A stretch of 64,000 bases of DNA from Mugil cephalus. Lineage: Eukaryota; Chordata; Actinopteri; Mugiliformes; Mugilidae. The stretch spans positions 1,334,575 through 1,398,574 of the forward strand of contig NC_061776.1 of assembly GCF_022458985.1 (NCBI RefSeq), written 5' to 3'. Both the position numbers and the translations under genes were made by a program. The notes beneath the pieces were generated by a model. It did no database searches. It was not told the DNA's origin and worked only from the letters and a program-made list of their open reading frames with translations. Of this stretch, positions 13,680 through 60,062 are shown piece by piece (positions within the stretch are counted from its first letter, which is position 1; every line of letters begins with the position of its first letter).

Positions 13680-16600
13680 ATGGCGGAAATCAAGACGGGA
13701 ATCTTCGCTAAAAACGTCCAGAAGCGTCTGAACCGAGCGCAGGAGAAGGTGAGAAGGCAGATGGAGGGTGGAGGGATGGAGGGTGGAGGATAGACGGAAC
13801 TAGGATGGAGGGTCGACGGGGGAGGACAGGCGGAGGCTGGAGGACGGATGGACGCTGTGGATGCAGTTCGGAGGCTGTGGGCCTCTGGATCAGTTGATCA
13901 AAGTCAAACGAGTCGTTTCCGTTTTTTTGAAGCGACAGCGGCTGTACAGAGGTGGTGACGTCATGATCCCGTTAAAATCAGCTGATAAAAACAACGTATA
14001 ATGATTAAAGTAATGCGGAGCCTCTGATTGGCTGCAGCAGGTGGATTAACATCAAGGCGTCACAAACATGTCGTTTAAATGAAGTCCACTGGCGCAAGGT
14101 CGAAGGCGCGGGGGGGGGCTACGCAATGACGCCAGGTCTGACGACAGTCCAACAACATGGCGTCATTCATGGGTTGTCTAGGTGTTAAATTTAGTTTAAA
14201 TCGATGTGATTGGTCTGATCAGAGTCACATGACTCATTCATTATTAAAGCAGTTTATTCACAGAAAGTCTGAAGCTGTCAAAAAATCTGACTCTAGAGGA
14301 CAGACTCTAGAGAACGGACTCTAGAGGACAGACTCTAGAAGACAGACTCCAGAAGACAGATTCTAGAGGACTCACTCTAGAGGACGGACTTTAGAAGACA
14401 GATTCTGGAGGACAGATTTTAGAGGACGGACTGTATACGACGGACTCTAGAAGACAGACTCCAGAGGACGGACTCTAGGAGACAGATTCTAGAGGACGGA
14501 CTCTAGAGGACGGACTCTAGAAGATAGACTCTAGAAGACAGATTCTAGAGGACGGACTGTATACTGAACTCTAGAGGACAAACTCCAGAGGACAGACGCT
14601 GGAGGACAAATTCTAGAGGACAGACTCTGGAGACCCGAGGACAGAGATGGAAGACATGTGACCCAAACACTGAATCATCTTTTCTGTGTTTTCTCAGGTT
14701 TTGCAGAAACTTGGAAAAGCAGACGAGACCAAAGATGAACAGTTTGAACAAGTCGTCATCAACTTCAGAAGACAAGAGGTGAGAGACATGTCCTCCTCTT
14801 CCCCCTCCTCTGCGAGACCAGGGAGAGGTCAATGGTTTCCATGTGGCCCAGTTAGAGGGTTCAGGGCTAGTGACCCTGTCCAGACCTGGTCTTGGGGTTA
14901 ATGACTCATATGATGACAACGTAACCATGTACTGGTATTGGCATGAGGTGGTCATAATCTTTTGGCAGGTGGCCTGACACAGCATCCTGTTGGTAGAGAG
15001 AACAGAACTGCAGCTGGAGCGTAGGACCTGAAGGCTTGTTGACCTGTCTCAGGGGGTGGAGGGGGCCCCGTCTGGTCTAGATAGGGGCTACGTCCACACC
15101 CATGAATGCCAGGTCCAAACCTTTCCCAGCACAACATTGAACTGTCACAAGATGGTCTATGAAAATTTCTTCTCCTGTCAGTGGTCATAATGTTGTGGCT
15201 GATGGGTACGGATATAGAGTTCATAGAGCTGCACTGAGCTCTGTGTCAACCTTCATTTTCATTTATTACCAGACGTTTCCTCTAAATGATCTATGTCTGG
15301 AACTTGTCGGTTTAGTTGGTTCTTCTCATCAGTTCCTGGAACTAGTCCCCGTTGTAACCCGTGTTCTGTGTTCAGTCTGAAGGTTCTCGGCTGCAGAGAG
15401 AGATGAAGGCCTACATGTCTGCGATCAAAGGTGACAAACATTATCTCTATCAAACCACATCCATCCCTGTACTAGACTCCTTCCTCTGGAGTACGATGAC
15501 CATCAGTGAGGGTCTGGTTGTTTGTGTGTTTGTGCAGCGATGCAGCAGGCCTCCATCAACCTGACCCAGTCTCTGCATGAGGTCTACGAACCGGACTGGC
15601 ATGGAAAGGATGATGTCATGGTCATCGGGAAGGTGAGAGTCATGGAAACACCTACACAACACCTACACACCTGAACACATCGCAGATATGATGGAAACCA
15701 CATTAACAAATATTCACTACATTTATTTGTACTGTAACCTTTGTTGAGCCATAGATTGTTTATTGCATAGAGGTCTGAGGAAACATTGTATAAAACTATT
15801 ACAAAACCAATTTTACAACAGAGAGCAATAAGGATAACCACCAGGGCTGATTATCAAGACCCAACAAACTAATTATTTATAAACTCACAGACCTTAAATT
15901 CAATGATCTTCTGAACTATAAAACTGCTCAAATTATGTATAACGTAAATAAAAACCTGCTTCCAGAGGATGTTTCAGACAGAGATATGTGTGTATAGGGA
16001 TGCAAAGGTATGAACAAATGTTAAAAAAAAAAAAAAAAAAAAATGTGGATCAATTAAAGGAGTCAATATATGGAATAATCTAGATTTAGAAATGAACACA
16101 TGTAACAAGCTTAATAGTTATAAAGACTTACTGAGATACAATATCATCAATACATAGAAAAGTGAATTATAAGCACACTGCTCATAAACTGTTCACTGGA
16201 CATAATGTACACGTTTTGTTCTGAATGAATCTTAAAATGAGCAGATGGAAAAATGGTGATTTAAAAAGTCTAGACAAAATAAGATGAAACCTTTTCACTC
16301 AAGGTACATTTGTTTAGTTTTCGTAAATTATATTTTAACAGAAAAAGAAAGAAGTGAATTACTATTTTTTCTTGTGTACAAAAAGTTTGTACCTGACTGA
16401 AGTAAACTGAATAAATAAAAACAAACAAAAAAAGAGGTAGATGACACCAAAACACGTCACAAAGGTAGACACGGTGTTACGTGAACACATCACACGGGGA
16501 GACACATAGGCCAATCAACAGCTGAACGGCTAACCCCCCGAACCCTAACCCTAACCCCTCTAACCCCTAACCCCCCTAACCCCCCTAACCCTAACCCTAA

Positions 16601-19181
16601 CCCCCTCTAACCCTTAACCCCTCTAACCCCCCTAACCCTAACCCTAACCCACTCTAACCCTTAACCCCCCTAACCCTCTAACCCTCTAACCTCTAACTCC
16701 CTACCACCCGAAACCTAACCCCCTAACCCCCCTAACCCTGTAACCCTCTAACCCCTAACCCCCTAACCCTAACCCTAACCCACTCTAACCCCTAACCCTT
16801 ACCCTCCAATTCCTTACCCTCTAACTCCTAACCCTGTTAAGTCCTAACCCTAAACACTAATGCTAACTTCCCTAGTGTTGATTGTAAAACAGTTTATCTC
16901 CATGTTTGTTTCCTGCAGGACTGTGATGCACTGTGGGAAGACTTCCATAACAAACTTGTTGACTCAACGCTGTTGAACCTGGACGCATACCTGCAGCAGT
17001 TCCCAGACCTAAAAGTCAGCAGCAGTTTGTTGTTTGGTTAAAGTTTTTCATATTGAAAACAGATTCACCGCATGAATTTATCTGTTGTTTCAGACTCGTG
17101 TGGCCAAAAGAAGTCGGAAACTCATTGACTACGACAGCGCACGTCATCACGTAGAGACTCTGCAGACGTCTGGGATGAAGAACGACCGCAAGATGATGAA
17201 GGTGAGAGCAGAACATGATGGAGGTTGGGATATTCAGCTGTTCAGTGGCAGCCTGGCATCACCTGAATAAATTCAGTTCCTCTCAGAATCCGGTAGCTGT
17301 CCATCTGGAGATAGTCCTCTAATCAATCCGACTCATTTAGTGTGGAAACTAATCAAATGATGTGAGACTTCCGTCACTCTTATGGCCATCACCATGTTAA
17401 GCCCCGCCCCTATGATCTGATTGGCCTAGCATATCTTTCCTGGAGAAGAATCAGTTCCTGACAAAAGACTCCAGAACAACAGTCCTCCGCTACACATTTA
17501 GTGGTGGAGTAGTTGCCTCTCGTCATCAGTCTGTGCAGGATTCCACCACAGTGTGCTGCCTTCTTTTCTGCCGTTTTGAGCCAGATGTTTCTGATCTGGT
17601 GTTGAATTTAATATTTCTGTCATGTGTTTGAAGTGATTTAGTGAAACAGTGTTTGTGTGCAGGCAGAGGAAGAGTTGAAAAAGGCCCAGAGAGTGTTTGA
17701 TGAGCTGAACGTTGGTCTGCAGGACGAACTGCCAACTCTCTGGGACCGGTGAGTCTCATCTCAAACTTCCTAAACACAAACTAATCTAAATAATTTTGTG
17801 TTTCTATGGAAACTGGTCTGTTGGTCAGTACTGTGCAAAAGTTTTAGGCAGGTGTGGGGAAAATGCTGTAAACTAAGAATGCTTTCAGGCATATAAACTT
17901 TATTTTTTTTATCAATTTGCAAAATGCAAAGTGAGTGAACAAAAATCCCATTAATATTTGGTGCTACTACCCTTTGCCTTTAAATCAGCAGCAGTTCTTG
18001 CAAAAAAGTTAGGGACTGCAGTTATGTGTATGATCAACACATTCTACTGAACAGGTGCTAACATTCATCACTGTCACGTGTAGAATGAAACCTAGTCGTT
18101 AACTGAAAGAGAAACAGCTGTGTATGAGGCTTCAAACTGGATGAAGAAAAGCCAGACTGTGCCACTAAGGTGAGGTGTGGAAGACAGGTTCATGTCACAG
18201 ATGAATACAGTACACTATGGCGAGATTGAGCACAGCAACAAGACACAAGGTAGTTCTACTGCATCAGCAAGGTCTCTCCCAGACAAATATTTCAAAGCAG
18301 ACTGGTGTTTCAAGATGAGCTGCTCAAGCTCTTTTGAAAAAGCACAAAGAAACAGCAACGCTGAGGATCGTAGACTCAGTGGTTGGCCAGGAAGCAGCAG
18401 ATGAAAAACAATCAAGATTATTTCCACTTTTAAATGTGAAGAACTCCACAGGTCAGATATTCAGCCTCCAGACCAGAGACCCTCACAAGAAGATGGAGGG
18501 AGAGAGGGAGACACAGTGGTTAGTAAATTATAAGAGATAGAAAATAAAATGATAAGATATTAGAGGACAGGAGCCAGAGAAGAAAGAGGAGAGGACATGT
18601 CCTCAGTGCATCGTCCCCCTGCAGCCTAGGCCTATAGCAGCATAACTAAGGGTTGGTTAAGTCCAGCTCTAACTATAAGCTTTGTCTAAAAGGAAAGTCT
18701 TAAGCCTGACCTTAAACGTAGAGAATATAGAATGTAGAATGTAGAATAACTGTTCAGTAAATACAGTTTACGTGTTTAAAATCTTCATATTAATGCAGTG
18801 TGAACAGTAGTGTTTTAATGTAGACACAAAGAATCATCTTACTGACATGAATATATGCATCAAAGCGTTAATTGAAGGCTAAGGTAAAATATCGAGATAT
18901 ATATTGTGTATTTGTGACATGTCCTAAAAACAATTAGTTAGGTTTAATTAGGTTTACATATTATATATTGCAATTATGTATGGCCACCTTGCACATGACA
19001 CATTTGTATATATTTTTGTATATTATTATTATTATTATTATTACTATTATTATTATTATTATTTACTTACTATTTACCTTTACTACCTCAGTAGTTTATA
19101 TTTTATTGTACCCAAATACCGGACTGCTGTGACAACCTAATTTCCCTTTGGGGATCGATCAATCAATCAATCAATCAATCA

Positions 19182-19260
<79 letters not shown>

Positions 19261-22200
19261 CATCCATCCATCCATCCATCCATCCATCCATCCATCCATC
19301 CATCCAGTAAAAGGCTATATCGCTCAGCCCAAGTCTGAAGTCTTCCAGGACTCTGAAGCTGCAGCTCAGATTGTGGCTGATCCCCGTCAGCCTGGACTCA
19401 AACTATTTAATAGACCCCCCTCTGGCAGGAGGCTGATTTTTCCAGGTTTCTGAGCCATAGAATAGAGTGGTCTTTACGTTTGAGTTGAAGATTTGTAGCT
19501 TAGTCTTGAGTGACAGGTTTTTTGCCTTCCAGATATTGCTTAGCATGTTGAATGTTGTCCTTGCCTTTCCACAGAAATGATGGTCCTGAAGTATGTGAAT
19601 CTGTTTACATCTTCTAGTGAGTTTTGGTCCATGATTATGAATGTTTTGTTCTTTAATAATCCTAAGGGTGGTAATTTGGTCTCCACAGGAACTGTTGTTC
19701 CTGAAGCCAGCCTGGTTTTCCCTCAGTTTCTCATTGACATTCTGGAGCCTTTCCAGCAGGATGTAGCTGAGCACCTGAACTCTCAGGTGTTGAAAGGGGC
19801 ATTATTCCTCTGTAGTTTTTATAGTCCCTGAGGTCTCCTTTCTCAGGGACTTTCACGATGTGGCCATCTTTTCAGTCAGATGGGTGGAGCATGTTGGTGG
19901 AGCTTTCAATGTCGGCCTTGAAAGCTTCTGCTGGAATCCTGTCTGGTCCCTCCGCTTCACGTCATCTTAGGACATAATGGCTTTTCTTATTTCCAACTTG
20001 TTGGGGAGGTTGCAGATTGTCTCCAACTGCCCTGGGGCTGGTGGGATATCTGCTTTCAGCTGAGGAGGCTGCCTGTCGAGCAGATCTCTGAAGTGTTCGG
20101 TCCAGCTCATCACCTGTTCTTCCTTGGTAGATGTCACCCATCCAGATCAAGATGTCCTTTCCTTTCCTGGTATGGAGGATGGTGTATAGTTGGTTGTAGA
20201 ATTGCTCCTTGGTTTTCTCGTCAGCATCGTTGGTAGGAGTGTAGCATTGTACAAGTTGGAAGTTTATTTTCTTATGCGTGCTTTAGAATTTGGCTGTGAT
20301 TATCCGTGAGTTGATGGGTTCCCAGCTGATAAGGGTCATCTGTGCTTCTTTGGACAGCATGAAGGCTACTGTGTGTGGTGCAGAGTCATCTGGATGTCCT
20401 GAGTATGGTCTCTCCTCTCGCTAATTTGACTTAGGGTTAGGGAGACTGACTGGAGCCACCTGGTTTCTCCTAGACCAAGGAGAGTTGTCCCATACCTCCT
20501 CATCTCCTCAACAATCACTGCTGCCTTTCCTCCTGCATACATCCTCACGTTCCATGTCACCATGGGGATGAGTCACCTCAAGGTCAGAAGCTTCAAATGT
20601 ACAGTATGCTTGTGGTTTTCCATGCACGTCGTCATAGTCTATTTAGCTTGGGGCGCTGAAGAGGCTTCCTTTCCAAGACCTGAGGGTTTTTGAGTATCTT
20701 TCTGTAGCTATAGGCTTTTACAGGATGAGGTTGCTAGTCCCGAGCCCAACCCCCACCTGTGGAGGAGTTTTGGAGTTGTTTTGTTAGTCCTCTTCCCTGT
20801 TGAAGGCCGGGTTTCCCAGATGTTTGGTCTGGTCAATCAGAGCTTTTGAGGGCAGCTTCATGAAGGCAAAGGGTGGTCACACCAAATATTGTCTGAAAAT
20901 ACAGTCTGAATTAAATTTTTATTTGCTTCAGAGTGAGCTCAGCCATAGAGAAACTGGAAAGAAGACTGTGAGACTGTAGAGCTGCATTCTGGTCTCAACC
21001 GTGTGTTTTTTGCCAGTAACATTGAATGGATTCCTCTCTGACCTGATTTTCAGCAGGTTATTAGTTTGGTAAAACGATCAGTCCTTGTGAGGCTCTAACA
21101 AAATCCCAAAAGAACCAAAAAGGAAAGTGTGAACCTTAAGACTGAGACTCACCTGATTGTTGAAGACCATTGATATGAATAGCATTAGTATGAAACGATT
21201 GTTTATACCGGCTCACATCATCAGTTTGTCTTCATGTCTATTGTCAAGTTAATGAAGTCAGCATTCACTGAGCTGCTCTGGTTCATATAAGAGTCAGTTT
21301 TTTTTAAAGCCAAGTGCCTCCTGAAAAAAAAGAAGAGGCTGAATGATGTGACATGTCAGTCTGAACACGGCTGATTCAAGCTTTTATATATTTATAGATG
21401 AGACAAAAGGAATCCTGATCATCATTTCACTGCTTTAATACTCTAATACTTTAATACCTGCAGCCGGGTCGGTTTCTACATTGGCACATTTAAGAGTGTG
21501 ACGAGTCTGGAGGCAAAGTTTCACCGTGAGATCTCACTGGTGAGATTTTCTTTTGTCTTTGATTGACTACTTCTTTAAATAAAGCTACAGTATATTAACT
21601 CAGACCAACAGTGTCTGGGCCTGAATTATCATTGGACTTGTAAATAATGATATTTCCTGTAACCCTGCAGGTGTGCAGACAGCTATATGAAGTGATGACC
21701 CAACTGGCAGAGCAGCACTCTGATAAAATGTTCACCATTCAAGGAGCTCCCAGGTCAGTGCCAGTGCCCACTCTCTAACCTTTCACTTCACAGATACATT
21801 GTTTTTGTGTAATTTTGTATAAGAGTTTCTGAGTTACACATATCTGGCAGATTAAAAAAAAGAAAGTGAGCACAATGACAGATTACTGGTGGAGTAAATT
21901 TTATTTACCAAAAAGCTGAAAAAATGCTGCATCTAGTCTTTAGGGGACATTCATGTTTCCCAGGGGCTGGTATAAATGGGCTAACATGGCTAAGACCTCC
22001 CAAGCTAACACAAAAACGATGAGAAAATAGTTTTTTAAATAACTTACAATGGATTCTTTTACGTTTTGATGAAACCACAGGCAGCAGCACCACCAAAAAG
22101 TCTATGAAAACATAGACTATCTCTAAATGGGCTGATTTATTACACACCCAACGCCCCCAGTCTATTCTATTCATTAAATTCTTGTAAGTGATTGAAGTGT

Positions 22201-25200
22201 TATCCACTGATCATTTGGGCTAAATCCAGTCAGCTCTCAGGCTGCTCATTGGTCTAAAGTGCTGCTGGTGTCAGAGTGGCAGGAGCCAGAAGAAGTTCAG
22301 CTATGGCGGAGTTAGCATGAACCAGGTGGATAACTGGTATTCTAATCTTTTTCCTTAATGACTTTGGAGAAAAATTGGAAGTTAAGAGACAAATGGTTTT
22401 CAAATAACTCGAAGGGACAAATTACAAATTCGTAAGTTTTGTGTTTCTGGTTTGAAAGAAATTACTGGCTAATGGGAAGTGTAGCCAAAAATTCACTTTT
22501 CTGTTTTCCATGCCTGTTTTTTTTTTTTTTTTTTTTGGAGGAGATACGGCAAGAACCCAACAAGGTTCCTGTCAAGCTGAAATGTTTTGGTTTCAACATC
22601 TCACACTGGCCAGCCAATCAGAACACGGTTTTCTGTCTTATCCCTCAGTGATTCAGGACCATTGCGTCTCGCAAGGACACCTTCACCACCCGAAGATGAA
22701 AGTCCACCAGAGAGTCCGGATGCCAGCTCCAACCACATGCTGCGCCCTGTCTCACCTGGACCACCACGGCCCAAATCCCCCACACAGGTAGAACCTTACC
22801 TTAACTAAACCATCATCTCATCTCATCTCATCCTCAGGTCATATAATTAGGTTATTGTGATTTGACTGATTGATAATATTTGTGATATTTGTAATTTATA
22901 GGCTATAGATACCAATGATTAGTACATATTATTGTCTGTGAGGTCATGGTTTATCTAAAAACAAAGCTCAAACAAAGACTACTGGATTTTAGTCTGAGCT
23001 GAAGCAGAACTCTAAGTATGTCCTGTTAGCTTACAGTGATTGCTAACAGAACTAACTCATAATGATGTTGATAGACAGTCATGGTGCAGAACAAAGTCTC
23101 TTTCTTGTCTGAACTTGATCGTAACTTTCTGTGACTGTTTTTTCTTTGCTGCTACTTTTGTGTGTTGATTGGTGAGTGAACCAAATGCTAGTTTGTTGTC
23201 ATGTGTCTGTTCCAACCTGTATTTAGAGATGATAAGACCCCAGTGTTGTTGTGTACAGTCGAAACTTAAAGTAGAATACCTCTATGATTCTACTGACAGT
23301 TCAGATATCGCTGTCTTTCCTTCCATAGTATTTTAAAGAGGTGTGTGTGTGTGTGGATATGTGCATAGATGTGTGTGTGATATGCAAACGCTTCTAGAAC
23401 ACTGGTTCAGTTGGTTCTGGTGCTGTAAGACTAAATTAGATAGTTTATTTATCCCAAGGTGTTTGTGATGATGAGTTGATGGCTGAAACACATGGTCACA
23501 GTTGTGAGAAGGTTCTGCAGCTTCTCAAAAACATCACCTTGAGGTTAACAATGAACAACGCTTCTTTCTCTGTCAGTCCAATCAGAACATTCACCACCCG
23601 AACACCTTTACAGACTACGGTCTAGTCCCTTTGTACGCCGATTAGTTCTGATGGATCCTAGTTTGAAGAAGTATCTGTTGTCTGTAAGTCTGTACTTTTA
23701 CTTTCAGACATTTAGGGTTGTTTAAACTGAACAAATGAATAGCTTTCTACTCCAGTCTTCATAATGAAACATTTCAAGAAGTTTTGATGAACTTTCTTCA
23801 AATATTCAGATTGTCTGACCTCAACAAGCCTCCATTTGTCCTGAACCCTGCCCTCACATTAACTAAACAAAAACACATTACCAACGGAAGTGATGTGATT
23901 TTAATTTTATACATTCATAAAAGGACAACCTCACTGTAACATCATGAAGAAACATGACATACCGTAAATGAATCGTATCAGTTGACTGGTTGGTGGAGGC
24001 GTACAAATGCGTATATATCCCACATACTTTTGTTTGTACTCCATGTTGGAACCAGTGTTTTAGAACCTCTCATCCTCATCTTAACAGTACAATATTTAAT
24101 TCATGTTGTACTTGTCTGTTGGAGGTTTCATTAAAACAAATACTTGTTACTCACTCCTCAGAGTATGATTTATTAATGTCAGCAAACATTTTTAATGGAA
24201 CAATTTTTTTTACCATCCTACACTGTGACACAGAGAGCCTTTGAGGTGGAGCACTTAAATCGCCTTAAAACGTCGTCTTCTTTTTTGTCTTTTCATCCCC
24301 AAATCTAACCATTTTCAGCTCCACAGCTGTAAAATTAAAATAATTGAAATAAAATCCATTCAAATCTCTCATCAGGCCATGTAACATTTAAATGTCTTTT
24401 GTACAAATTATAAAATAAAGAGTAAATAACAAAGAGTATGTGACATTGATGTTAGATTCTGAGGCTCTTCTAATCAGCCTGAAATAGAGGCAGCCAGTCT
24501 AAGTTGTATCTGTTCAGTCCTTTAGTCTCTGTGTCTTCAGACCAGTCCTCTAAATGCTTCATCTCCATGATCATGCTTCCACCACTAAAGCTGCTTCATG
24601 TTTCTGTGACTGTGGGTTCTAGTATTTCGCTGTGTTTCTCTTTGACTGATGGCTCGATGGTGTTGGTGACTCTGCTGTGTGACTGAAATGAAATATATGT
24701 TCATTCACTACAGGGATGTTAAATGTTTTTGCTTGTGAGGGAACTGTGAACATTAGGGAGCACTCTCGTTTACACCTGTAGTTTGTCTTGGAAACATTTA
24801 CTGCTTCAGATCTAATTTGTGTCTTTGATTTCAAAGACAAACTGATGACTGAAGGCTTTTTCATTTTTCTGTTCAACAATTAATAATAGATCACTTCTTG
24901 TCTTTAGCAGACACAGCCGAACCCTAACCCCAACCCTAACCCTGACCAAGCTAACCCTAATCAAGCTAACCCCAACCCCAACCCCTAACCCTAATCAAGC
25001 TAACCCTAATCAAGCTAACCCCAACCCCAAACCCTAACCCTAATCAAGCTAACCCTAACCAAGCTAACCCTAACCAAGCTAACCCCAACCCCAACCCCTA
25101 ACCCTAATCAAGCTAACCCTAATCAAGCTAACCCCAACCCCAACCCCTAACCCTAATCAAACTAACCCTAATCAAGCTAACCCTAACCAAGCTAACCCCA

Positions 25201-28200
25201 ACCCCAACCCCTAACCCTAATCAAGCTAACCCTAATCAAGCTAACCCCAACCCCAACCCCTAACCCTAATCAAACTAACCCTAATCAAGCTAACCCTAAC
25301 CAAGCTAACCCTAACCCTAGCACCCTGTTGTCCTGCTCTTGTGATCAGATGTGTTTTGGTTGTTGCTGCCTTGCTGTTCCGATTTATTAACATAGCTTTG
25401 TTTCATTTTTGTGAAGCTTAAAAAGGGTCCACCAGTGCCTCCACCACCGAAGGTCACACCCACCAAGGAGGTGGCAGAGGAGCAGATTATCGATCTGTTT
25501 GGTGGAGAATTCTTACCAGCGCCTTCACCCTCACAGGTCTGAGTCCACTTCAGTACGGACAAACCAGTACATGCACTGTGTTATGAGTATGTTCTTACCT
25601 GTTTTCCCTTTGTTGTCATCTACAGCCCAATGAAAGACCTGGAGAGTCGCTTCTTGATCTAGACTTTGATGCTTTCCAGCCAGATGAAAGTGTTTCGCCA
25701 ATACCACAGGTTTCATTCATCAACTGAACATGTTTCAGGACAAAACAGCATCAGCACCATCACAGTATACATGTTTACATGCACGTGAAAAAACAAATTA
25801 GTGCCTTAATCCGACTTTAACTGTCTTTATCTGCACTGTAACTAGCATGCACACAATGTGTGAGATTAAAAAGCTGAACTATTCTCCATCTGGTTGTTGT
25901 TTGAAATGCTGGTCTGCCACATGAACGATTCTTGTTTATTATATGATGTAACAGGTCAACCAGAAGGGGGGCCCCTATTAACATGGTATTAACCATGTGT
26001 GAAGGAGGAGGGCGTGTTCCTGTCAGTTAGGGTTAGGGTTTCTCCATTGCATGTAAACCAATGGAGGACTGTATTCAGAAAGTCAAATTTAGAGCACAGC
26101 TCTGTTAAGCTGCACATGTATGTGTGTCTACGTGCAGGTGGTCATAAATCAGATCTTTTAGTTTGTGTTTGGTCAGATTTGATATATACTCTCTCCTTGT
26201 AGCAAACTACAAAAAGTAAGTTACAAAATAAAGAAGTAATCCTATAAAGTGGCTTAGGGTTAGTACACTTGGTCTAAATACAGGTTCATCCTTCCCACTC
26301 TGTATTGGTTCAAGCTATAAGAATTGCTTGTTGATTCTAGTGTATATAAGATGTGTGTTATTTTATTATCATTAGTCACACTAAACAACATTAACTCTTC
26401 TCTTTCAGACAGCTGTACCTTGGGATATGTGGTCGGTGAGTATGATTTGCTAAATTATACAAATTTACATTTACTTCTAATACAACTTCACATCGGTCAA
26501 TCAACAGAGAGTTACCCTGTTCAGTCAGGAACCATTTTCCTTTTCTTTTTTTCAAGGCCAATGCCCAAGCAGCTCAGCCTGTAAGTACCTCCAGTTACAT
26601 GTGTTCATTTAAACTAATCAACAAGAGTCTTTTCCCGTTTCCATATTAAGTTTGAATGCATTTGTTTTCATTGTCACTTTTTTCAAGATTTGTTACAACG
26701 ACTTTGACAGAGTTTCATTTTTTCTGCTAAAATATTGATGTGTAGTATCAGGCAAACACTTACATTCTTGGTCAGGGGCGTTTGTTACGTGTCATGTTCT
26801 CTTTGTCCAATAAAGTAATGGAATAAGGAAGAAAAGTGTAAATGGTAACTACTGGGCAATGCTCCAGAGTGGTGCTGGTGGCCCTTTCATCTTAAGTCAG
26901 TTCTACTGAAGGAAGAACCCGGTGGACTCAATTAATTCTAACATCATTTGTGTCAAGTCTACTTTGTTTACATCCTCTGTGTCATGCCGGCCTTCCAGTC
27001 ACAGGATGGGGCCAAAGTTTAACCCTTCATTCCCTGCCTTTCCAAGCAGGCTACAGATTCTGGTTTCGTCCCTGACTGGTCAGCTGACTTTGGTTCTGTG
27101 TCAGCAAACGGAGATGCTGGTTCTGGAGCTGAGGCCCCAGATGCTCCAGGGGCCACCGCTGTAGGGCCAGAAGGGGTGCAGGGCGAGACTCAGAGCTGGC
27201 CCCAGGCAGAAGGCTTGCAACCAGGTGCAGATCCAGCTACACCCACCCAGGACTGTAATGCCAAGGCAGCTGAAGATGAGGTTAGCAGCTGGGACTCTCA
27301 AACTAACCCTCTTCCTCAGCCCTGTGGTAGTGATGAAGACGAGGCAGGGCAGTCAGATTCAGAAGGAGATCTGATAGGGCAACAAGACCACAGGAAGTCC
27401 ACCCCAGGACTTATATTCACCAATGAGTATGGTGAACAGGTTGAGGAGATTGCAGAGGATCGAGGAGACAAGTGCTCCAGGTCTCCGGACGGATCTGGGT
27501 CTGAATATGAGACTGCTGAAGAGTGGGGGGATGGGGGTCAGGGAGGAGGCTGGGTGAGTGCTGATGACGAACTTTCCTGTGGACATCGCTCTCCAGTGAA
27601 GACGTCAGGGGCTGAGAGTGTAGCAACAGCACAAGTTTCACCAGAGGGCGCTGTAGCTGATGACTCAGGAAAACTAAGTGATGAGACTGAAACACAGGGA
27701 GGGGGGGGTGCGTTTGATTCGGATCCTTTTCCTGAAACACAGGGAGGGGGGGGTGCGTTTGATTCGGATCCTTTTGCTGAAACACAGGGAGGAGGGGGTG
27801 CGTTTGATTCAGATCCTTTTGCTGAAACACAGGGAGGAGGGGGTGCGTTTGATTCGGATCCTTTTGCTGAAACACAGGGAGGAGGGGGTGCGTTTGATTC
27901 GGATCCTTTTGCTGAAACACAGGGAGGAGGGGGTGCGTTTGATTCGGATCCTTTTGCTGAAACACAGGGAGGAAGGGGTGCGTTCGATTCGGATCCTTTA
28001 GCTGAAACACAGGGAGGGGGGAGTGCGTTCGATTCGGATCCTTTTGCTGAAACACAGGGAGGGGGGGGTACATTTGATTCGGATCCTTTAGCTGAAACAC
28101 AGGGAGGGGGGAGTGCGTTCGATTCGGATCCTTTTGCTGAAACAAAGGGAGGAGGGGGTGCATTTGATTCGGATCCTTTTGCTGAAACACAGGGAGGAGG

Positions 28201-29499
28201 GGGTGCGTTTGATTCGGATCCTTTTGCTGAAACACAGGGAGGGGGGGGTGCGTTTGATTCGGATCCTTTTGCTGAAACACAGGGAGGGGGGGGTGCGTTT
28301 GATTTGGATCCTTTTGCTGAAACACAAAGAGGGGGGGGTGCGTTTGATTCGGATCCTTTTGCTGAAACACAAGGCAGTGCTGTTAGTGAACCGGGTGGGA
28401 ACAGAAGGGAGGATTTTACTCAGGCCTCAGGTGAAGGTGGGGTGGATTTAGAGTCTTTCGCCAACAGTTTCCCAGCATCCTCTTCAGGAACTGAGGGTCC
28501 TACCTCCGACAGCACTTCCTGGCAGGACGCTGGCTCCACGTCTTCTGTCACTAAGCAAAGTTCAGCGTCCATCTGTGGAACAGCAGCACAAGGAAATAAT
28601 GAAGTAAACTGTCCCAGAATTCACAAAGAACCAGAAAATTCAGACATGTCCGAAGATGAGGCCGCAAACCGGAGATTTGGAAAGTTATACCAAGAGCTAG
28701 ATAAAGAAAAGGAAGAGGTACTTACCTTCCTTCCGTCTTGGTGTGGTAGATAGCTTAGAGTAGACTAGAGATCAGTGAGAACCCCCCTTTCCTCTCTCCC
28801 CTCCCCCAGACTGAGAGAACATAAAGTCCAGTTGTTGCTCTGAAGTCTGGATCCCAGCCTGAGCTCCTCCTGCCTCCACTCTTGCTTGCTCCCATCTCTG
28901 AACGTCCTCTGCTTGTTCATCGTTTCACCCTGAATCTGCCTTTTTATTTTAGACTCATCTCACTTTAAAAACTAATTTGTGTCTCTGCAATTTAATTTAG
29001 GTGGCCAATTCATTTAATGGATTTTCACAGGTAACGTTGAAACTGAACTTGAAGTATATTTCACCTACTCAATGACTCAAATGTGCAGAGATGAGACGGA
29101 TTTAGATCCTTTGATTCAGTATAAAGCTGTCCAACATTCAATGTTAAGTTGTTTTGGATTGTTTCTAATGTTCACTTTTTTTTGTCAATTTTTTTTATCC
29201 AAATCTTGCCACCAGAATTGTGTCTAAAACTATTCTGTTTTATTGTTGAGCAGTAAAATATGAACAGGAGAGAGGTCACTGATTTAAAGTAGCAGCATGC
29301 TTACAGCACCATACCCTTAGAAACCTTTATTCATCCCAGTAATGCCTCTTAAGTCTTTGACCAGTTTCTGTTGTGGGTGTTAAAATGTCCTGATGTCTCA
29401 TCTCATAATGCTCATTAAATTTCTCTATTTCACATGCTGTCTGAAGGATGCAGCTGCTCCGGCATTTTTTGCTGATTTTGACAAGATGGTGAGTTGTAA

Positions 29500-29575
<76 letters not shown>

Positions 29576-29588
29576 GTCTATCTGTCTA

Positions 29589-29632
<44 letters not shown>

Positions 29633-32020
29633 ACCCTTTGCTGTTGGGAAGCTGTTGATGTGGTTTGTCATGTTCTTCTCGTTCAACTTAGTCGTCTTTT
29701 CCTCTTTCACTGTTTCACGGATTCTCTCCTTCTCTCCTTCTGGGAGTTCACCACGTTAGAGTGATCCAGATTTACTCCTTCTCCGCCTCCTTCTTCTTAT
29801 GGATTTATCTCTTGTTGTGTTGCCTTTATTTCCCCATCCTCTCCACCAGCTTTCCATTTACAGACCTAGGACTAGGACTAGGACTGCTGCTCTGAATTTA
29901 ATGAACTGTGGAATCTTTTCTAGTCGGTTCTAATCAGATATGACAGGAAGTGAAGATGACTTTAGACCAGAATTACATCCAACACATTACCACTGTTTCT
30001 TTTTGCAAAAGAACCAAGTTAACAGTGAACCAACGGAGTCTCCTGAAGCCTCAAAGACACCAGCTGCTAGTCCAGCAGAAGAACAACCTCCAATTCCCTC
30101 ACCGGGAGGAGAACAGGATCAGCAGGCACCTCCATCTGAAGAAGAACAGGTGAAGGAACATGTAGCGCCTCCTGCTAGTGAGGTGGAGGAACATGTAGTG
30201 CCTCCTGCTGGTGAGGTGGAGGAACATGTAGCGCCTCCTGCTGGTGAGGTGGAGGAACAAGAAGCACCTCCTGCTGGTGATCAAGAAAAGATAGAAAAAG
30301 CTTCAGACAGCCCAAAGGAGGAGAAGCCAGCTGTAAGTGGATATTTTGATGATGTGATAACAGCAACAGTGGCATTTGAGATCATCATCATTATCCTTAT
30401 TGTCCTTATCACCATCTTCATCAAGTTCATCATCATCGCCATTATTACCTTCATCTCCATCATTTCCATCTTCATCTCCATCTCCTTGTGGCTGTGGTGG
30501 AGCAGGTTGTCCACTAACCAGAGGGTTAGGGGTTTGATCCCTGGAACGTGCCACATTCTGAAGTGTCTGTGAACAAGACCCTGAACCCCCTGGTGTTCCC
30601 AGTTTGTAACCCTATTCACCACCATCTTCATCCATATCACCATAATCTTCATCATCATCATCTTCATTGTTTAAATGAAATCAGACTGAAACTTAAGTGT
30701 CAGAGTGAAATGTTTTGAAGTTGAGGTTGAATTAAATCTGATTTTCTCTCTGAAGTCAACAGTTGGCTCTCCAGGCTCTGGCAAAGCAGATCTTGGTGAA
30801 GTATGTTACTCCACTCTTGTTTTTATTGGCTCTTTATCTTCCACTAATTATAAGTGAAAACTAAAATGTCTGTGAAGTGATGGAAATAGTATTTCCTGAG
30901 CCATTCAATGAAACTTCTTATGGTATGCTTGTCAAACTATTGGATGATGTTTTATCAGACTGAATTTATAACCTGGTAACTGACTCTTTTAATTTTCAGG
31001 TCTTTTCTGGAGTACCCACAAACATTTTATTTAATCAATCACCTCATGTAGAATGATGTATGGCCAGGTTCTCTGATGACAACACTTGCTGTTCTGTTTG
31101 TTTGACGTATTTTCTGTCTGCAAACAGATTCTTCTTGCTGAAGAGACTAAAGCATCTCCAGGTGAAGCAGCAGCAGCTCTATCGGTAAATATGAAATATC
31201 ACTCATCCAGGAGTCATCCGTAGAATCACTCGCATACAGCTAGCGTCACCTACAGGCAATTGGAAGTCAGGGAAATCATTTACAATAGGATGTTTTTTGT
31301 TAACAAAGCAGAACAGCCTCATGGTCCTCGTTTTGGTTTGTTTGCACTGTGTGTAAAGTGAAGGATATTTAAAGATGTATATGCAGTGAAACCTGGTTAT
31401 TATAATATCGACTGTCCTCTGCAGGAAAATATGCCAATCCCCTCTGTTGTGATTGAACCTGCCTCGAGTAATGAAGGTGATGATGACCGTGATGCTGACA
31501 TCATCTCCCCAATTGCAATCAGTGACAATGGTGTGACCAGTGAAAACCAGACCATCAAACATATGAGTGCTGCCGGTGGAGTGTCAGGACTTCCTGATGA
31601 CTTTCTTTACAAGGTGACGATTCTTCCAGATGCTAATGACAATCCTGTAATAGTTGATATGCTGAGTGTGTCAGAAGTATTGATTGTGTATTTGGACTTG
31701 CAGGTGGAGACCATGCATGATTTTGAGGCTGCAAATTCAGATGAGCTTGAGCTAAAGAGAGGTGATGTGGTTTTGGTGGTTCCCACTGCTTCAGTAGAGG
31801 ATCAGGTGAGAGCAGCTAATCACACATAGAAACCTTTCCATTAAAATTCAACATTGTACCTGAAACAATCAGTTCCAACAATCTGAAAAGGCTGATTGTG
31901 TTGGTTTTGTGTTTATAGGATGCTGGTTGGCTGACTGGGATCAAAGAAAATGACTGGTTAACGCTTGGAAGGAGCGCCCATAAAGGACTTTTCCCAGAAA
32001 ACTTTACCCAGCGTGTTTGA
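13680..32020 (+). CDS. amph: Amphiphysin, 23 coding exons
   Basis: BAR-domain adaptor that bends membrane and recruits dynamin, clathrin and AP2 in endocytosis, mainly at synapses. Exons: 13680-13748, 14698-14778, 15376-15430, 15538-15632, 16919-17014, 17094-17201, 17663-17748, 21464-21539, 21671-21753, 22649-22787, 25417-25536, 25626-25709, 26409-26435, 26557-26580, 27050-28717, 29001-29030, 29447-29488, 30012-30332, 30756-30800, 31128-31184, 31425-31613, 31704-31805, 31919-32020. All have AG/GT borders and phases agree (1232 residues; 676 without the 1668-base exon, close to the 695 of human AMPH). The N-terminal BAR domain (about 1-240) begins [20 protein letters not shown]. Next come a proline-rich dynamin/endophilin-type segment (exon 10), clathrin box LLDLD with FDAF (exon 12), PWDMW (exon 13), and a C-terminal SH3 (about 1159-1232) with [11 protein letters not shown] and [15 protein letters not shown] and this SH3 favour amph over bin1. 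Confidence 0.95.
14282..14640. repeat. Minisatellite in amph intron 1
   Basis: About 25 units of 14 bases of the type 'gactctagaggaca', with A/G changes, ending just before exon 2. Confidence 0.9.
15740..16170 (+). mobile_element. LINE C-terminal fragment in amph intron 4
   Basis: The plus strand carries a broken frame with '[10 protein letters not shown]', 'DPTN' and '[19 protein letters not shown]', typical of the region after the RT domain in Jockey/CR1-type elements, interrupted by an A-run near 16021. It appears to be the same kind of element as the minus-strand fragment at 37280-37870. Confidence 0.6.
16533..16850. repeat. Degenerate telomere-like (CCCTAA)n tract in amph intron 4
   Basis: Runs of ccctaaccctaacc alternate with ctctaacccc, cccctaacccc and similar variants over about 320 bases. 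The tract is 70 bases upstream of exon 5. It is an interstitial telomere-like tract, not a chromosome end. Confidence 0.85.
17826..18425 (+). mobile_element. Tc1/mariner-type remnant in amph intron 7
   Basis: It starts with a sequence (cagtactgtgcaaaagtttt) that I recognise as a Tc1-type terminal inverted repeat in fish. Downstream, 18060-18420 retains decayed transposase-like DNA. I could not place the second terminal repeat, and the copy is cut by the L2 fragment that follows. Confidence 0.5.
18430..18725 (-). mobile_element. L2-type LINE 3' region, reverse orientation
   Basis: This is the reverse complement of the region 36530-36770 in the longer L2-type copy. Shared blocks include the AGAGGACAGG..GGACATGTCCTCAGTGCAT stretch and TAGTTAGAGCTGGACTTAACC read on the minus strand. 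It is a short 3' piece ending about 50 bases past the old RT stop codon position. Confidence 0.8.
19020..19307. repeat. Compound microsatellite in amph intron 7
   Basis: (TTA)n at 19023-19065, then after a short unique stretch ending 'ccctttggggatcgatc' come (AATC)n, (TATC)n and (CATC)n tracts in series, at 19158-19307. The preceding motif is typical of the 3' end of fish retroposons whose tails end in such tetramers. Confidence 0.9.
19400..20640 (-). mobile_element. Internally deleted LINE with AP-endonuclease start and RT/C-terminal pieces
   Basis: On the minus strand 20563-20366 begins an apurinic-type endonuclease ([21 protein letters not shown]) and continues in broken frames through '[10 protein letters not shown]' and 'MGD'. 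After the RT entry region and '[18 protein letters not shown]' (19700), the sequence jumps to the C-terminal '[23 protein letters not shown]' (about 19500). The catalytic palm with the YADD block is gone. The type resembles the RTE/Nimb-like elements of fish; the clade is uncertain. Confidence 0.7.
24905..25320. repeat. Telomere-like/minisatellite tract in amph intron 10
   Basis: Units such as ccctaatcaagctaa and ccccaaccccaacccctaa alternate in a higher-order pattern over about 415 bases and end about 100 bases before exon 11. It combines (CCCTAA)-like cores with a 'tcaagct' insert. Confidence 0.85.
25765..26135. mobile_element. Short non-autonomous element (MITE-like), copy 1, in amph intron 12
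   Basis: About 370 bases with no coding capacity, closely matched to 46450-46800. Shared blocks include tggttgttgtttgaaatgct and cttgtttattatatga. Both copies have sequence resembling gcatgtaaac near the ends, in opposite sense, which suggests inverted termini. This copy carries an extra ggttagggtt stretch. Confidence 0.65.
27050..28717 (+). CDS. amph: Giant symmetric cassette exon of amph with a 15-unit DPF repeat array
   Basis: This 1668-base exon encodes 556 residues (382-937 of the long product) and starts and ends in phase 0, so it can be skipped without a frame change. It opens with acidic, tryptophan-containing sequence ([16 protein letters not shown]), continues acidic, carries 15 tandem 15-residue repeats with DPF motifs at 27689-28363, and ends in a charged helix ([16 protein letters not shown]). 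DPF motifs bind the AP2 alpha ear. The acceptor is tttccaagCAG|GCT and the donor GAAGAG|GTACTT. From memory, retina-enriched amphiphysin I variants with long inserts at this place are known in mammals; the repeat array itself I do not recall. The minus-strand open frame across the repeats is a mirror artefact. Confidence 0.85.
27689..28363 (+). repeat. amph: 15 tandem copies of a 45-base coding unit ([15 protein letters not shown])
   Basis: Exactly 15 units of 45 bases with no length variation. Thirteen encode DPF and two (units 7 and 9) DPL. Variation is mostly in the G-run (ggaggggggggt or ggaggagggggt) and single residue changes (unit 14 FDLDPF; unit 11 ETK; unit 15 ETQR). Fourteen of the fifteen carry GGATCC; unit 3 has cagatcc instead. 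The high identity between units indicates recent expansion or homogenisation. Confidence 0.97.
29500..29632. repeat. (TATC)n/(TGTC)n microsatellite in amph intron 17
   Basis: About 130 bases of tatc and then tgtc tetramers, starting about 12 bases after the exon 17 donor. Confidence 0.95.
30012..30332 (+). CDS. amph: amph exon 18, acidic/proline-rich linker with four 11-residue repeats
   Basis: A 321-base exon (107 residues, phase 0-0) of the disordered linker between the clathrin/AP2 region and SH3. It contains four imperfect tandem 11-residue units of the type [11 protein letters not shown] (33-base units, about 30151-30282), rich in Glu and Pro. The acceptor is tttttgcaaaAG|AAC and the donor GCT|GTAAGT. 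It is a second repeat-expanded exon in the same gene and is not related in sequence to the DPF array. Confidence 0.8.
30490..30600 (+). mobile_element. tRNA-derived SINE fragment in amph intron 18
   Basis: The segment has a tRNA-like pol III promoter pattern: an A-box-like 'tggtggagcaggttgtcc' and a B-box 'ggtttgatccc' (consensus GGTTCGANNCC), followed by 'agtgtctgtgaacaagaccctgaa', which is common in fish SINEs. It is flanked by ATC-rich simple repeats (30380-30480 and 30620-30665). Confidence 0.6.
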
Positions 32021-39575: not shown

Positions 39576-41510
39576 AGACTACCTCCTTTTTCCCTCTACC
39601 TCTTCTTCTTCCTCCTCTGAATATACCTGATCTGTTTCTACCTCCTCTATGGTAGAACATTCCTCTTCCTCTTCTTCTACCTCCTCTATGGTAGAACATT
39701 CCTCTTCTTCTACCTCCTCTATGGTAGAACATTCCTCTTCCTCTTCTTCTACCTCCTCTACGGTTTAACATTCCTCTTCTTCTACCTCTGCTATGGTAAG
39801 ACATTCCTCTACCTCTTCTTCTACCTCCTCTACGGTTGAACATTCCTCTACCTCTTCTTCCTCTCCTTCTTCCTCTCCTGACTTTACCTCGTCTGTTCCT
39901 ACCTCCTCTACGGTTTAACATTTACCTTTTTACCTCCTTCTTCATACCTCCTCTACGTGTTTACATTACTTTCACTCCTCTACCTCCTCTACCTCTTCTT
40001 CCTCTCCTTCTTCCTCCTCTGACTTTACCTCGTCTGTTCCTACCTCTTCTACGGTTTAACATTCCTCTTCTTCTACCTCTGCTATGGTAAGACATTCCTC
40101 TACCTCTTCTTCTACCTCCTCTACGGTTGAACATTCCTCTACCTCTTCTTCCTCTCCTTCCTCCTCCCCTGACTTTACCTCGTCTGTTCCTACCTCCTCT
40201 ACGGTTTAACATTCCTCTACCTCTTCTTCTACCTCCTCTACGGTTTAACATTCCTCTACCTCTTCTTCCTCTCCTTCTTCCTCCTCTGACTTTACCTCGT
40301 CTGTTCCTACCTCTTCTACGGTTTAACATTCCTCTACCTCTTCTTCCTCTCCTTCTTCCTCCCCTAACTTTACCTCGTCTGTTCCTACCTCCTCTACGGT
40401 TTAACATTCCTCTACCTCTTCTTCCTCTCCTTCTTCCTCCCCTAACTTTACCTCGTCTGTTCCTACCTCCTCTACGGTTTAACATTCCTCTACCTCTTCT
40501 TCCTCTCCTTCTTCCTCCCCTAACTTTACTTCGTCTGTTCCTACCTCCTCTACGGTTTAACATTCCTCTACCTCTTCTTCCTCTCCTTCTTCCTCCCCTG
40601 ACTTTACATTGTCTGTTCCTACCTCCTCTACAGTTTAACATTCCTCTACCTCTTCTTCCTCTCCTTCTTCCTCCCCTGACTTTACATCGTCTGTTCCTAC
40701 CTCCTCTACAGTTCAACATTCCTCTTCCTCTTCTTCTACCTCCTTTACGGTTTAACATTCTTCTTCCTCCTCTGCCTTTTACTGCTCTGTTTTTACCTAA
40801 CCCTAACCCTTGTCCATTTTCACCTAACCCCAATCCTCCGTTTTCTTCTCCTCCATTTTCATCTCCTCTGTTTTCACCTAATCCTCCCCCGTTTTCTTTT
40901 CCTCCATTTTCTTTTTCTCCGTTTTCACCTAATCTTCCCCCGTTTTCTTTTCCTCCATTTTCTTTTTCTCCGTTTTCACCTAACCCTCCTCCGTTTTCTT
41001 TTCCTCTATTTTCATCTCCTCTGTTGTCACCTAACCCTCCTCCATTTTCTTCTCCTCTGTTTTCATCTCCTCTGTTTTCACCTAATCCTCCCCCGTTTTC
41101 TTTTCCTCCATTTTCTTTTTCTCCGTTTTCACCTAATCCTCCCCCTTTTTCTTTTCCTCCGTTTTCTTGTTCTCCATTTTCACCTAACCCTCCTCCGTTT
41201 TCTTCTCTATTTTCATCTCCTCTGTTTTCACCTAATCCTCCCCCGTTTTCTTTTCCTCCATTTTCTTTTTCTCCGTTTTCACCTAATCCTCCCCCGTTTT
41301 CTTTTTCTCCGTTTTCTTTTCCTCCGTTTTCTTCTCCATTTTCATCTCCTCTGTTTTCACCTAATCCTCCCCCGTTTTCTTTTCCCCCGTTTTCTTTTTC
41401 TCTGTTTTCTTTTCCTCTGTTTTCTTCTCCATTTTCATCTCCTCTGTTTTCACCTAACCCTCCTCCGTTTTCTTTTCCTCTGTTTTCATCTCCTCCATTT
41501 TCATCAGTAT
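39576..41510 (-). repeat. Two-part tandem repeat: hexapeptide E/N/G units then 78-base R/G units
   Basis: About 41510-40830 is built of 18-base-type units coding mixes of GENGEK, ENGGKE and GGGLGE. About 40800-39965 contains roughly nine longer units (about 78 bases) coding MLN(R/C)RGGRNRRGKVRGG-like sequence. Related R/G and YHRGGRRRG units continue past the stop codon at 39961 in the same frame down to 39576, after a second stop near 39925. On the plus strand the array reads as a misleading 472-codon Pro/Leu/Phe-rich open frame. Confidence 0.9.
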
Positions 41511-43187
41511 CTGAAACACAATACTGTGCAACCTGGTTATTATGAGAGCAACTTCTGCACTGCATGTGATCTTTTAATTTCACACAATGGAAAATATTCT
41601 GAAGGCCGAGAGTATTCCCAAGTTTCTCAAGGGCTTCTCTGAGCTGGTCCTCATTAACAGAAAGTTTTGGATTCTTTGAGTTGGGTGTGTAACTAAATAC
41701 AAAAGCATAATGTTTCCACCGCTTAATGAGTTTTAAATACTTGATAATGTTTTTGGGATCATTTTCATTGGTACATTTGTGGTAGCATGGGGATCCAAGA
41801 ACAAAGAAAAGCAAAAGATCATGTTCAGTGTCATATTTTCTGTTGAGTAAGGCGTCACAATTCGTCAGAACACGGTACTTTGCATGAACATACTCTCTTT
41901 TTATTTTCTTAACTCTAGCTGCTTTTATTGTGCCTTCATTAAAAACTTTGCCTTCTTTTAATGCCTTCTTTATTGTGGCATCATCCACACCACTGAAGCA
42001 TTGGTTTATGTCATAAATCTGGTCCATGTTCTCCTTCTTTGGGATGCTTACTGCCACACTGAACATCTTGTTCTCTTTGTACCTGCAAAGACAGCAGATA
42101 AAAACTATTACTAGTATTACCTTATACTTAGTGGACCACAATTCATAATTCAAGAGAAAATATTCTGTTTACTTTGAAAAGAGTTTGCACTGGCATCCTT
42201 TTATTGAGTATGTGCTCTTAATTTCTCTAACGATATTTCCAAGCAAAACATCACTATTTTTATTCTGAAGTCTATTTATGTTGAATAGTTTTCACAAGTT
42301 TCATAAGTATTGTGTTCGTTTGTTGTACCATTGAGCAAAACGACCAGATTCAAATTCCTTGTATGTGTTCACATACCTGACTAATGAAGCTGATTCTGAC
42401 TTAGGCCACAGATTGGTGGAGGTAGCTATTCAGACTTCTGGTCAAAATTGTGTCCGTGCTTGTAGTGGCAGCAAAGGGTTACAACTAAATATTGACTAAA
42501 ACTCAGTCTAAAGACTATGTTCTTGTGCATGCTTTGTAAGAACAGTTTCATATTATCACTAAGCTCAGCTATCCACTAGCCCATACTCCGTTAGCTTCTA
42601 ATACAATAAATGTTACTTAAATATGTTTCGTCCAATGGCTGAAATGTGTCAGTGTCCAAACATGTATGTAACTGGAGCCATACCTCCTTTCATCTGTAGA
42701 CTGCCAATTTTGAAAGTGTTCTCTCTCCTTGTCGACATTCACTTCTAATTTCAGTGTGAGTTTTCTAACCACCTGAAAACCCTTAAGGTTAGAGGTCTGT
42801 CTTTTCATTACACTTCTCACACTCTTTATTCTTGTGAGTTCAATGGAGGAAGAACGTTTAGCTGACCATAGCGGTTTCATTATAAAAGCAATTCGGAGGA
42901 AAGATAAAGGCCTTTTAGTATGAATTGCCATTAAATAAGTGGACATTAGTGAACAGATCATACAAAGCAAGTCTAATACAAACAGTGGATGTCAGCTTAT
43001 GTTTATATATCAAAGATTTTTATTTTAACCTCTTTGTATATTGTTAATTGCAGGAGAAGAAACTGACATACCTTTTCCAGATCTCATCCACAAGGTTTGC
43101 AAGTTGGCTCTGGTCCACAGCAGAAAAAGCCTTTCCAGTGAACAGGATCAAGGCTATCGTCACAGACATCCAGCAGAATCTTGTCAT
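39961..43187 (-). CDS. Secreted AID/APOBEC-like (SNAD-type) deaminase-like protein with a giant charged repeat tail
   Basis: Exon 1 (43187-43072) encodes a signal peptide (MTRFCWMSVTIALILFTGKAFS) and ends AAAAG|GTATGT. Exon 2 starts at 42082 after tttgCAG; the join gives IWKRYKENKMF in frame and 745 residues. Residues 40-230 match my memory of a fish secreted family: an HAx motif (105-107), LLLFFVLGSPCYHKC (zinc-type PC..C, C138 and C142), YAFVFS, LEKLGNTLGLQNIF and a CxxC (C214, C217). The expected catalytic HAE reads HAK here (codon 41880-41878), so deaminase activity is doubtful. From about 229 the protein is repeats: an E/N/G-rich block (GGGLGENGEKENGGKENGG-like), then an extremely Arg/Gly-rich block with units of about 26 residues beginning MLNRRGGRNRR. 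Family membership is inferred; the tail could be a decayed or alternatively spliced region. Confidence 0.65.
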
Positions 43188-48285: not shown

Positions 48286-48500
48286 CAGCATGAGACTAGT
48301 TTCTCCAACAGGAGGCGTCTGGAAGCTTAATCACCAACAAAGGCTTTTCTACAAAGTATTAAATATCAGTGCATGTGTTCAATACTTTTTCCCTCTGTTA
48401 TTTCACATTATTACACATAACTTCATTTCCAAAATTCCAAAATTTGTTTTGGTTTTTCTATGTATGAATTATTTGGGTTGTCACCAGTGTTGGGCATGTT

Positions 48501-49000
48501 NNNNNNNNNNNNNNNNNNNNNNNNNNNNNNNNNNNNNNNNNNNNNNNNNNNNNNNNNNNNNNNNNNNNNNNNNNNNNNNNNNNNNNNNNNNNNNNNNNNN
48601 NNNNNNNNNNNNNNNNNNNNNNNNNNNNNNNNNNNNNNNNNNNNNNNNNNNNNNNNNNNNNNNNNNNNNNNNNNNNNNNNNNNNNNNNNNNNNNNNNNNN
48701 NNNNNNNNNNNNNNNNNNNNNNNNNNNNNNNNNNNNNNNNNNNNNNNNNNNNNNNNNNNNNNNNNNNNNNNNNNNNNNNNNNNNNNNNNNNNNNNNNNNN
48801 NNNNNNNNNNNNNNNNNNNNNNNNNNNNNNNNNNNNNNNNNNNNNNNNNNNNNNNNNNNNNNNNNNNNNNNNNNNNNNNNNNNNNNNNNNNNNNNNNNNN
48901 NNNNNNNNNNNNNNNNNNNNNNNNNNNNNNNNNNNNNNNNNNNNNNNNNNNNNNNNNNNNNNNNNNNNNNNNNNNNNNNNNNNNNNNNNNNNNNNNNNNN
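48501..49000. other. Assembly gap (500 N)
   Basis: Exactly 500 undetermined bases. It removes the 3' part of the stonustoxin-like gene; open frames reported across it have no meaning. Confidence 1.
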
Positions 49001-59439: not shown

Positions 59440-60062
59440 TGTGATACAATTAAGAATTCCACCAACACTATGGAGAGTTATTTGTAATGAGACAACAAAC
59501 TCTTCATGGTCAGAGAAGATCGTCCATCCTCATGATGAGCGTTGACTCTATGACTGTGAACTTCTTTTCTGAATCTGTGTAAAGAAAAATCAGAAAACAA
59601 GAGATCATAACCACAGCTCCAGTCACCATGACACTACACAGCTGTTACTAGTCAGTGGTTTGTCCACAAATAAGAAACAAGAAACACACCAAGCAGAATG
59701 ATTCCCCATTCATTTTATAATATTAACTGCTGGTAGTTGATTTCTCTGATGATATAATCATGTTTTGTTTGTGTCACACCAAGCATTACAAGAATAAATG
59801 TGTTCCTGATGTCCGAATATGTATACAGTCTCATAAAACAATTTAAGTGATTCAGAAAACAACACAAATTATGACAGTCTTTATTCTATCCAGCTGTATG
59901 ACAGTCCATCTTTTTATAAGAAAGAATTATGACCAATTAATTTCCCTGATGGATCATCAAAGTCTGTCTACGTCTACAGCTACGTGTTTCATTTGTTAAC
60001 TGCTATCAAGAAGTACAACTCTCCTTTGTAATATACCTGAGAGAAGATGAAAGATTCGTGAA

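Follow-up and report, generated by a model that had tools for sequence, protein, structure and literature searches.

The amph gene of Mugil cephalus contains a large exon with a tandem array of DPF motifs, which raises the question of whether the array makes the long form of amphiphysin a high-valency AP2 scaffold or is a minisatellite that grew in frame and adds mainly length. The original prediction, made from the letters of the locus, proposed the scaffold and regarded its combination with a BAR and an SH3 domain as unreported. The gene was analyzed within a 64-kb stretch of DNA, which is referred to as the window and supplies all coordinates below.

Gene model and domain organization

The exons of amph were placed by splice signals under the guidance of the human protein, and GT-AG borders are present at 19 of 19 introns in the resulting model (Table 1). 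The exon 12 donor has the lowest score of the 19 with a splice-site matrix but was retained, since its position is consistent with the human protein. As judged by sequence comparison, the gene product is amphiphysin and not BIN1 or BIN2; the best PDB sequence match is the amphiphysin BAR domain (4atm) with 394.7 bits, compared with 300.0 for BIN1 and 240.9 for BIN2. Residues 526–628 of the short form, which cover the SH3 region, match the PDB chains of the BIN1 and amphiphysin 2 SH3 domains. Clathrin-box-type motifs and a C-terminal SH3 domain are thus present at the level of sequence motifs, as for amphiphysin I; we take LLDLD to be of the clathrin-box type and PWDMW to be of the clathrin W-box type.

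Exon 15 is bordered by AG and GT, has phase 0 at both ends and holds 556 open codons. Its removal keeps the frame and leaves a product of 628 residues, so that a long and a short isoform are both possible, as had been proposed. Three tiny exons flank this large cassette (26409–26435, 27 nt; 26557–26580, 24 nt; 29001–29030, 30 nt). A second in-frame coding repeat lies in exon 17 (30148–30280, 33 bp × 4.0), and a CTAACCC-like, telomere-like repeat occupies 24920–25317 in an amph intron.

Table 1. Features of amph and their positions in the window.
Feature	Position	Strand	Description or basis
amph gene	13680..32020	+	20 coding exons including stop; long product of 1184 aa, short product of 628 aa when exon 15 is skipped
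Exons 1–9, N-BAR domain (residues ~1–241)	13680..21753	+	Pfam BAR 14–232, E 1.5e-46
Exon 12: LLDLD and LDFDAF	25626..25709	+	translation, motif scan
Exon 13 (27 nt): PWDMW	26409..26435	+	gene model translation
Exon 15, 1668 nt, phase 0/0	27050..28717	+	skippable in frame; counterpart of human retinal AMPH insert
DPF array	27689..28363	+	15 × 45 bp, 13 DPF and 2 DPL, residues 595–819
Five UAG triplets	28747..28768	+	positions 30–51 of the intron after exon 15
Exons 19–20: SH3 domain and stop	31704..32020	+	Pfam SH3_9, E 2.3e-8

Beyond amph, the window contains several minus-strand ORFs. These include an ORF with a TGF-beta family domain (7066–7908), an ORF overlapping several tandem arrays of periods 51 and 78 and containing a SNAD1 AID/APOBEC-like deaminase domain (39964–42168), an ORF that encodes stonustoxin-type helical and thioredoxin-like domains (48461–50257) and belongs to a family widespread in fish genomes, and an ORF with an AIG1/septin-like GTPase domain (57763–59529). 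Reverse-transcriptase ORFs are found at 1391–3423, with RVT_1 above the cut-off and zf-RVT below it.

The DPF array

TRF calls a single array at 27687–28371 (period 45, 15.2 copies, 94% matches, 0% indels), which has the highest score among the ten minisatellites of the window that pass the cut-offs given below (1202; the next is 925). Fifteen units of 45 bases, or 15 residues each, fill 27689–28363 exactly (675 bases); both the TRF call and a unit-by-unit count confirm the 15 in-frame units originally described. The recount also returned the same 13 DPF and 2 DPL motifs at a fixed spacing of 15 residues, and the gene model, with its 1184 residues, reproduces the earlier placement of the array at residues of about 595–819. 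The two DPLs are located in units 7 and 9, and the other 13 units contain DPF. Each unit differs from the array consensus at 0–4 bases, with a total of 24 differences in the 675 bases. Neighboring DPFs are separated by 12 residues in 10 of the 12 gaps and by 27 residues in the remaining two, where a DPL intervenes. The encoded chain is Gly-rich, repeats FDSDPF with a period of 15 residues and has a net charge of −42 across 225 residues. When the DNA of exon 15 was compared with its own genome (634,849,253 bases in 24 contigs, with simple repeats and very common words skipped), only the self-match was found.

The open frame was considered as proof of coding and dropped; ORFs of 321 and 293 aa on the minus strand also cross the array. 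Because other frames are long too, the openness of the array is little proof, and the case for coding is instead based on the frame that the array has in common with its flanks, on the splice sites and on the match to human retinal peptides described below.

All three parts of exon 15 fall on the disordered side of the charge-hydropathy plot by their composition. An AF2 prediction of the array with short flanks, made without an alignment, has a mean pLDDT of 54.4 and no residue at or above 70. The short strands drawn in this model were not accepted as a fold. By composition, the array is predicted to be disordered. Pfam contains no family that matches exon 15, PDB sequences gave no match to it at E values up to 10, and the search of viral contigs for a relative gave four pattern matches, none of which was confirmed. 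Rfam showed no match anywhere in the 64-kb window.

Homology of exon 15 to the retinal insert

A retina-specific splice variant of amphiphysin 1 is described in a review (PMC11536687), and its original report is cited in PMC6952364; these two sources point to Terada 2002 and Hosoya 2004 for the variant, amphiphysin Ir. In human retina, AMPH transcripts carry insertions of 102, 406 and 415 aa, and the peptides DQDINNSDLSEDEIANQR and DEIANQRYGLLYQEIEA were detected by mass spectrometry within the AMPH insertion (PMC11450717, Table 2). The end of exon 15 matches these peptides: of the 22 residues encoded by 28637..28702 (+), 15 are identical to those of the merged DQDINNSDLSEDEIANQR and DEIANQRYGLLYQEIEA. 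The alignment score is 85, and none of 2000 shuffled peptides was as good (shuffle maximum 45); the next best site for this query in the six-frame window scores 39. For three of four human peptide queries, no alignment to exon 15 beat the shuffles. On account of the match at the exon end, it is well supported by sequence comparison that exon 15 corresponds to the known retinal insert of amphiphysin, with homology at least at the 3´ end. The anatomy of the array and the homology of the exon are both well supported.

This homology bears on the claim of novelty. Since exon 15 is the counterpart of a known insert, the existence of a long isoform is in itself no novelty; a form with BAR, SH3 and a large disordered insert was already known, and that part of the claim falls. 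What appears to be new is the DPF array inside a retinal-type insert. No DPF array in amphiphysin is named in the titles and abstract openings of the literature that combines 'amphiphysin' with 'DPF motif'; a broader DPF search was swamped by work on zebrafish, where dpf usually stands for days post fertilisation. DPF occurs in none of the five printed human retinal insert peptides, which are peptides and not the whole human insert. In the parts of the human retina atlas that deal with AMPH, the insert is termed an exon elongation, and once an intron retention, not a separate cassette, and no protein domain was identifiable in it (PMC11450717).

A further explanation is that the array works chiefly at the level of RNA or DNA, for instance as a splicing element, or that the exon is rarely used. 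The exon 15 donor is the fourth lowest of 19 with the same matrix, in line with rare use. However, peptides of the human counterpart have been found in retina (PMC11450717), and exon 15 combines 556 open codons with splice signals in phase, so that we consider this explanation very improbable.

Splicing signals around exon 15

Downstream of exons that are raised in photoreceptors, clusters of at least three UAGs show an enrichment of up to 8-fold, and Musashi acts directly on such exons (PMC4991804); rod exons are activated by MSI1 with low PTBP1 (PMC6952364). The first 60 nt past the exon 15 donor contain five UAGs, compared with 0–2 at the other 18 amph donors. Over a range of 200 nt the exon 10 donor likewise has five, which limits the contrast to the tight proximal cluster. 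In first-order random sequence, five UAGs arose by chance in 29 of 20000 trials under a same-intron model and in 14 of 20000 under a gene model. In the window itself, 0.34% of 60-nt stretches reach five UAGs on the plus strand, the cluster included, and 1.55% on the minus strand. The chance that at least one of the 19 donors shows such a cluster is therefore roughly 1 to 6% under the two random models and the plus-strand rate, and about a quarter under the minus-strand rate. The UAGs after exon 15 follow one another at 4–5 nt, start to start, and the spacing in the published clusters is wider (10–15 nt; PMC4991804).

CU motifs upstream of exon 15 are not outstanding, with 3 in 150 nt versus 0–7 at other exons. 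A C- and CU-rich tract lies downstream of the UAG cluster (28782–28808); such tracts are of the kind bound by PCBP or PTBP proteins. The UAG cluster resembles those of Musashi-driven photoreceptor exons, which supports but does not prove use of exon 15 in photoreceptors. Exon 15 is predicted to be included in the retina of this animal.

Motif readers and AP2 docking

DPF motifs are typical of AP2 alpha-appendage ligands, and 13 copies are present in the array. A motif scan of the 1184-aa model found no DPF, DPW or FxDxF outside it; the looser D-x-F/W matches outside the array are DLF 322, DAF 351, DMW 370 and DDF 1112. In mammalian amphiphysin I, we take the AP2 motifs to be FEDNFVP and FDPF (LDFDPF). 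LFGGEFLP and FDAF are found here where the mammalian protein reads FEDNFVP and FDPF. Given these altered counterparts and the lack of any other DPF, DPW or FxDxF in the model, most of the docking between amphiphysin and AP2 in this animal may depend on the long exon.

Two published rules for reading DPF motifs bear on the array. Eps15 binds AP-2 through single DPFs with a KD of about 200 µM each; binding increases linearly with DPF number, and avidity over several alpha appendages does not need strict intervals (PMC4921775). The mu-homology domains of FCHo need tandem DPFs with gaps of 2–3 residues (PMC4921775), and in SGIP1 ligands the linkers are 2–3 residues for the high-affinity site and 5 for the low-affinity site (PMC4731787). 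Two or three DPFs joined by linkers of 2–5 residues do not occur in the array, in which the linkers are 12 or 27 residues; the array therefore agrees with the rule for the appendage but not with that for mu-homology domains. FCHo/SGIP1 was rejected as the main partner on the same grounds.

Another reader of DPF or Phe, either a mu-homology domain of FCHo/SGIP1 or an EH domain of the REPS type, could nevertheless be the partner, or the array could associate with itself as an evenly spaced sticker-spacer chain. The DPF strings of Eps15 are read by SGIP1/FCHo domains (PMC4731787, PMC4921775), the EH domain of POB1 is reported to bind DPF (PMC2238750), and a Gly-rich chain in which FDSDPF returns with a 15-residue period is consistent with self-association. 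The linker lengths given above speak against the mu-homology domains, and this group of explanations is unlikely as a whole. A high-valency AP2 scaffold is plausible by analogy and fits the published DPF-binding rules.

Origin of the array

The 13 distinct variants among the units comprise 8 nonsynonymous and 5 synonymous changes, and 8.9 and 3.8 are expected without selection (transition weight 4). No sign of selection on DPF was detected in the variation within the array. Units 7–8 and 9–10 look as if one pair had been copied from the other, which makes a single event the probable source of both DPLs. The presence of degenerate older units in the exon flanks was not supported: at the protein level, 774 of 1000 shuffles were as good on the left and 26 of 1000 on the right, where the alignment includes the partial unit ETQG, and at the DNA level 23 and 52 of 300 shuffles were as good. 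Ten minisatellites, coding or not, were found in the 64-kb window with non-overlapping calls of period at least 12, at least 4 copies and a score of at least 150; amph contains two in exons (periods 45 and 33) and three in introns (14, 47 and 49). By its sequence, the array appears to be a young in-frame minisatellite, in which the frame is kept and the motif is without measurable constraint. Thirteen copies in a young duplicated array are therefore not thirteen independent signs of selection.

These data bring in the main rival to an AP2 tether, neutral expansion, in which a chance DPF in a tolerant disordered insert was multiplied by slippage or unequal exchange and the copies add mainly length. 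The units are nearly identical, their variants occur in neutral proportions, 2 of 15 motifs are already DPL, and both the window and the exons and introns of amph have other minisatellites, all of which fits neutral growth. However, the motif that was repeated is an exact endocytic docking motif, and it lies in an endocytic protein otherwise without DPF, DPW or FxDxF. We regard neutral expansion as a real possibility, though not the one we adopt.

Proposed role of the array

The explanation that we prefer is that the array acts in the retina as a high-valency AP2 tether, carried by an N-BAR/SH3 protein at ribbon terminals; we judge it to have an even chance of being right. Confidence in function is moderate because the motif is without measurable constraint, which is the strongest counter-argument. 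According to this proposal, a 45-bp minisatellite would have grown in frame and turned one FDSDPF into 13 intact DPFs, and exon 15 would be included in photoreceptors, probably via Musashi. The resulting N-BAR/SH3 protein with a disordered middle would offer 13 weak sites for the AP2 alpha appendage on each chain, or 26 per BAR dimer, which would stand beside two clathrin-box motifs. Together the weak sites might bind several AP2 complexes by avidity, and AP2 would be gathered or stored, in the ribbon-synapse terminal, at those sites of the membrane that amphiphysin curves and to which it brings dynamin. AP2 binding, avidity and the synaptic role are what we infer for the array.

The published physiology cuts both ways for an AP2 role of retinal amphiphysin. 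In bipolar cells, fast endocytosis uses the retinal amphiphysin variant, and slow clathrin/AP2 endocytosis is described as independent of amphiphysin (PMC11536687). As reported in PMC6031744, the slow component is affected by dialyzing the clathrin- and AP2-interacting domains of amphiphysin, neither component is affected by dominant-negative amphiphysin, and prolonged stimulation yields no clathrin-coated vesicles.

A bolder proposal, to which we give only tentative credence, is that photoreceptor amphiphysin in this lineage has come to join its curvature and dynamin module to an Eps15-like AP2 concentrator that can be tuned by copy number. If so, ribbon terminals would gather AP2 and the fission machinery in one protein, and endocytic capacity may be tuned by a DPF copy number that differs among individuals or species. 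With a natural array of a single, evenly spaced motif in a skippable exon, the effect of AP2 valency at ribbon synapses could be told apart from those of curvature and dynamin binding; such an array would also illustrate the evolution of docking valency by minisatellite growth.

Comparison with known systems

Brain amphiphysin I has the BAR domain, clathrin-box motifs and SH3 domain that are likewise present here. Amphiphysin Ir shares with the long form the gene, an insert downstream of BAR and a homologous stretch near the insert end; the insert here differs in that it consists of 556 aa, is a separate cassette and contains the array of 13 DPFs. Eps15 has, to our knowledge, neither a BAR nor an SH3 domain. 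The DPF region of Eps15/Eps15R is similar in DPF number (15 in human and 13 in mouse Eps15) and likewise belongs to an endocytic protein that is oligomeric; its chain is unstructured (PMC4921775), as is predicted for the array. In Eps15, some motifs are 2–3 residues apart, in contrast to the regular 15-residue period of the array here, which arose by recent tandem duplication.
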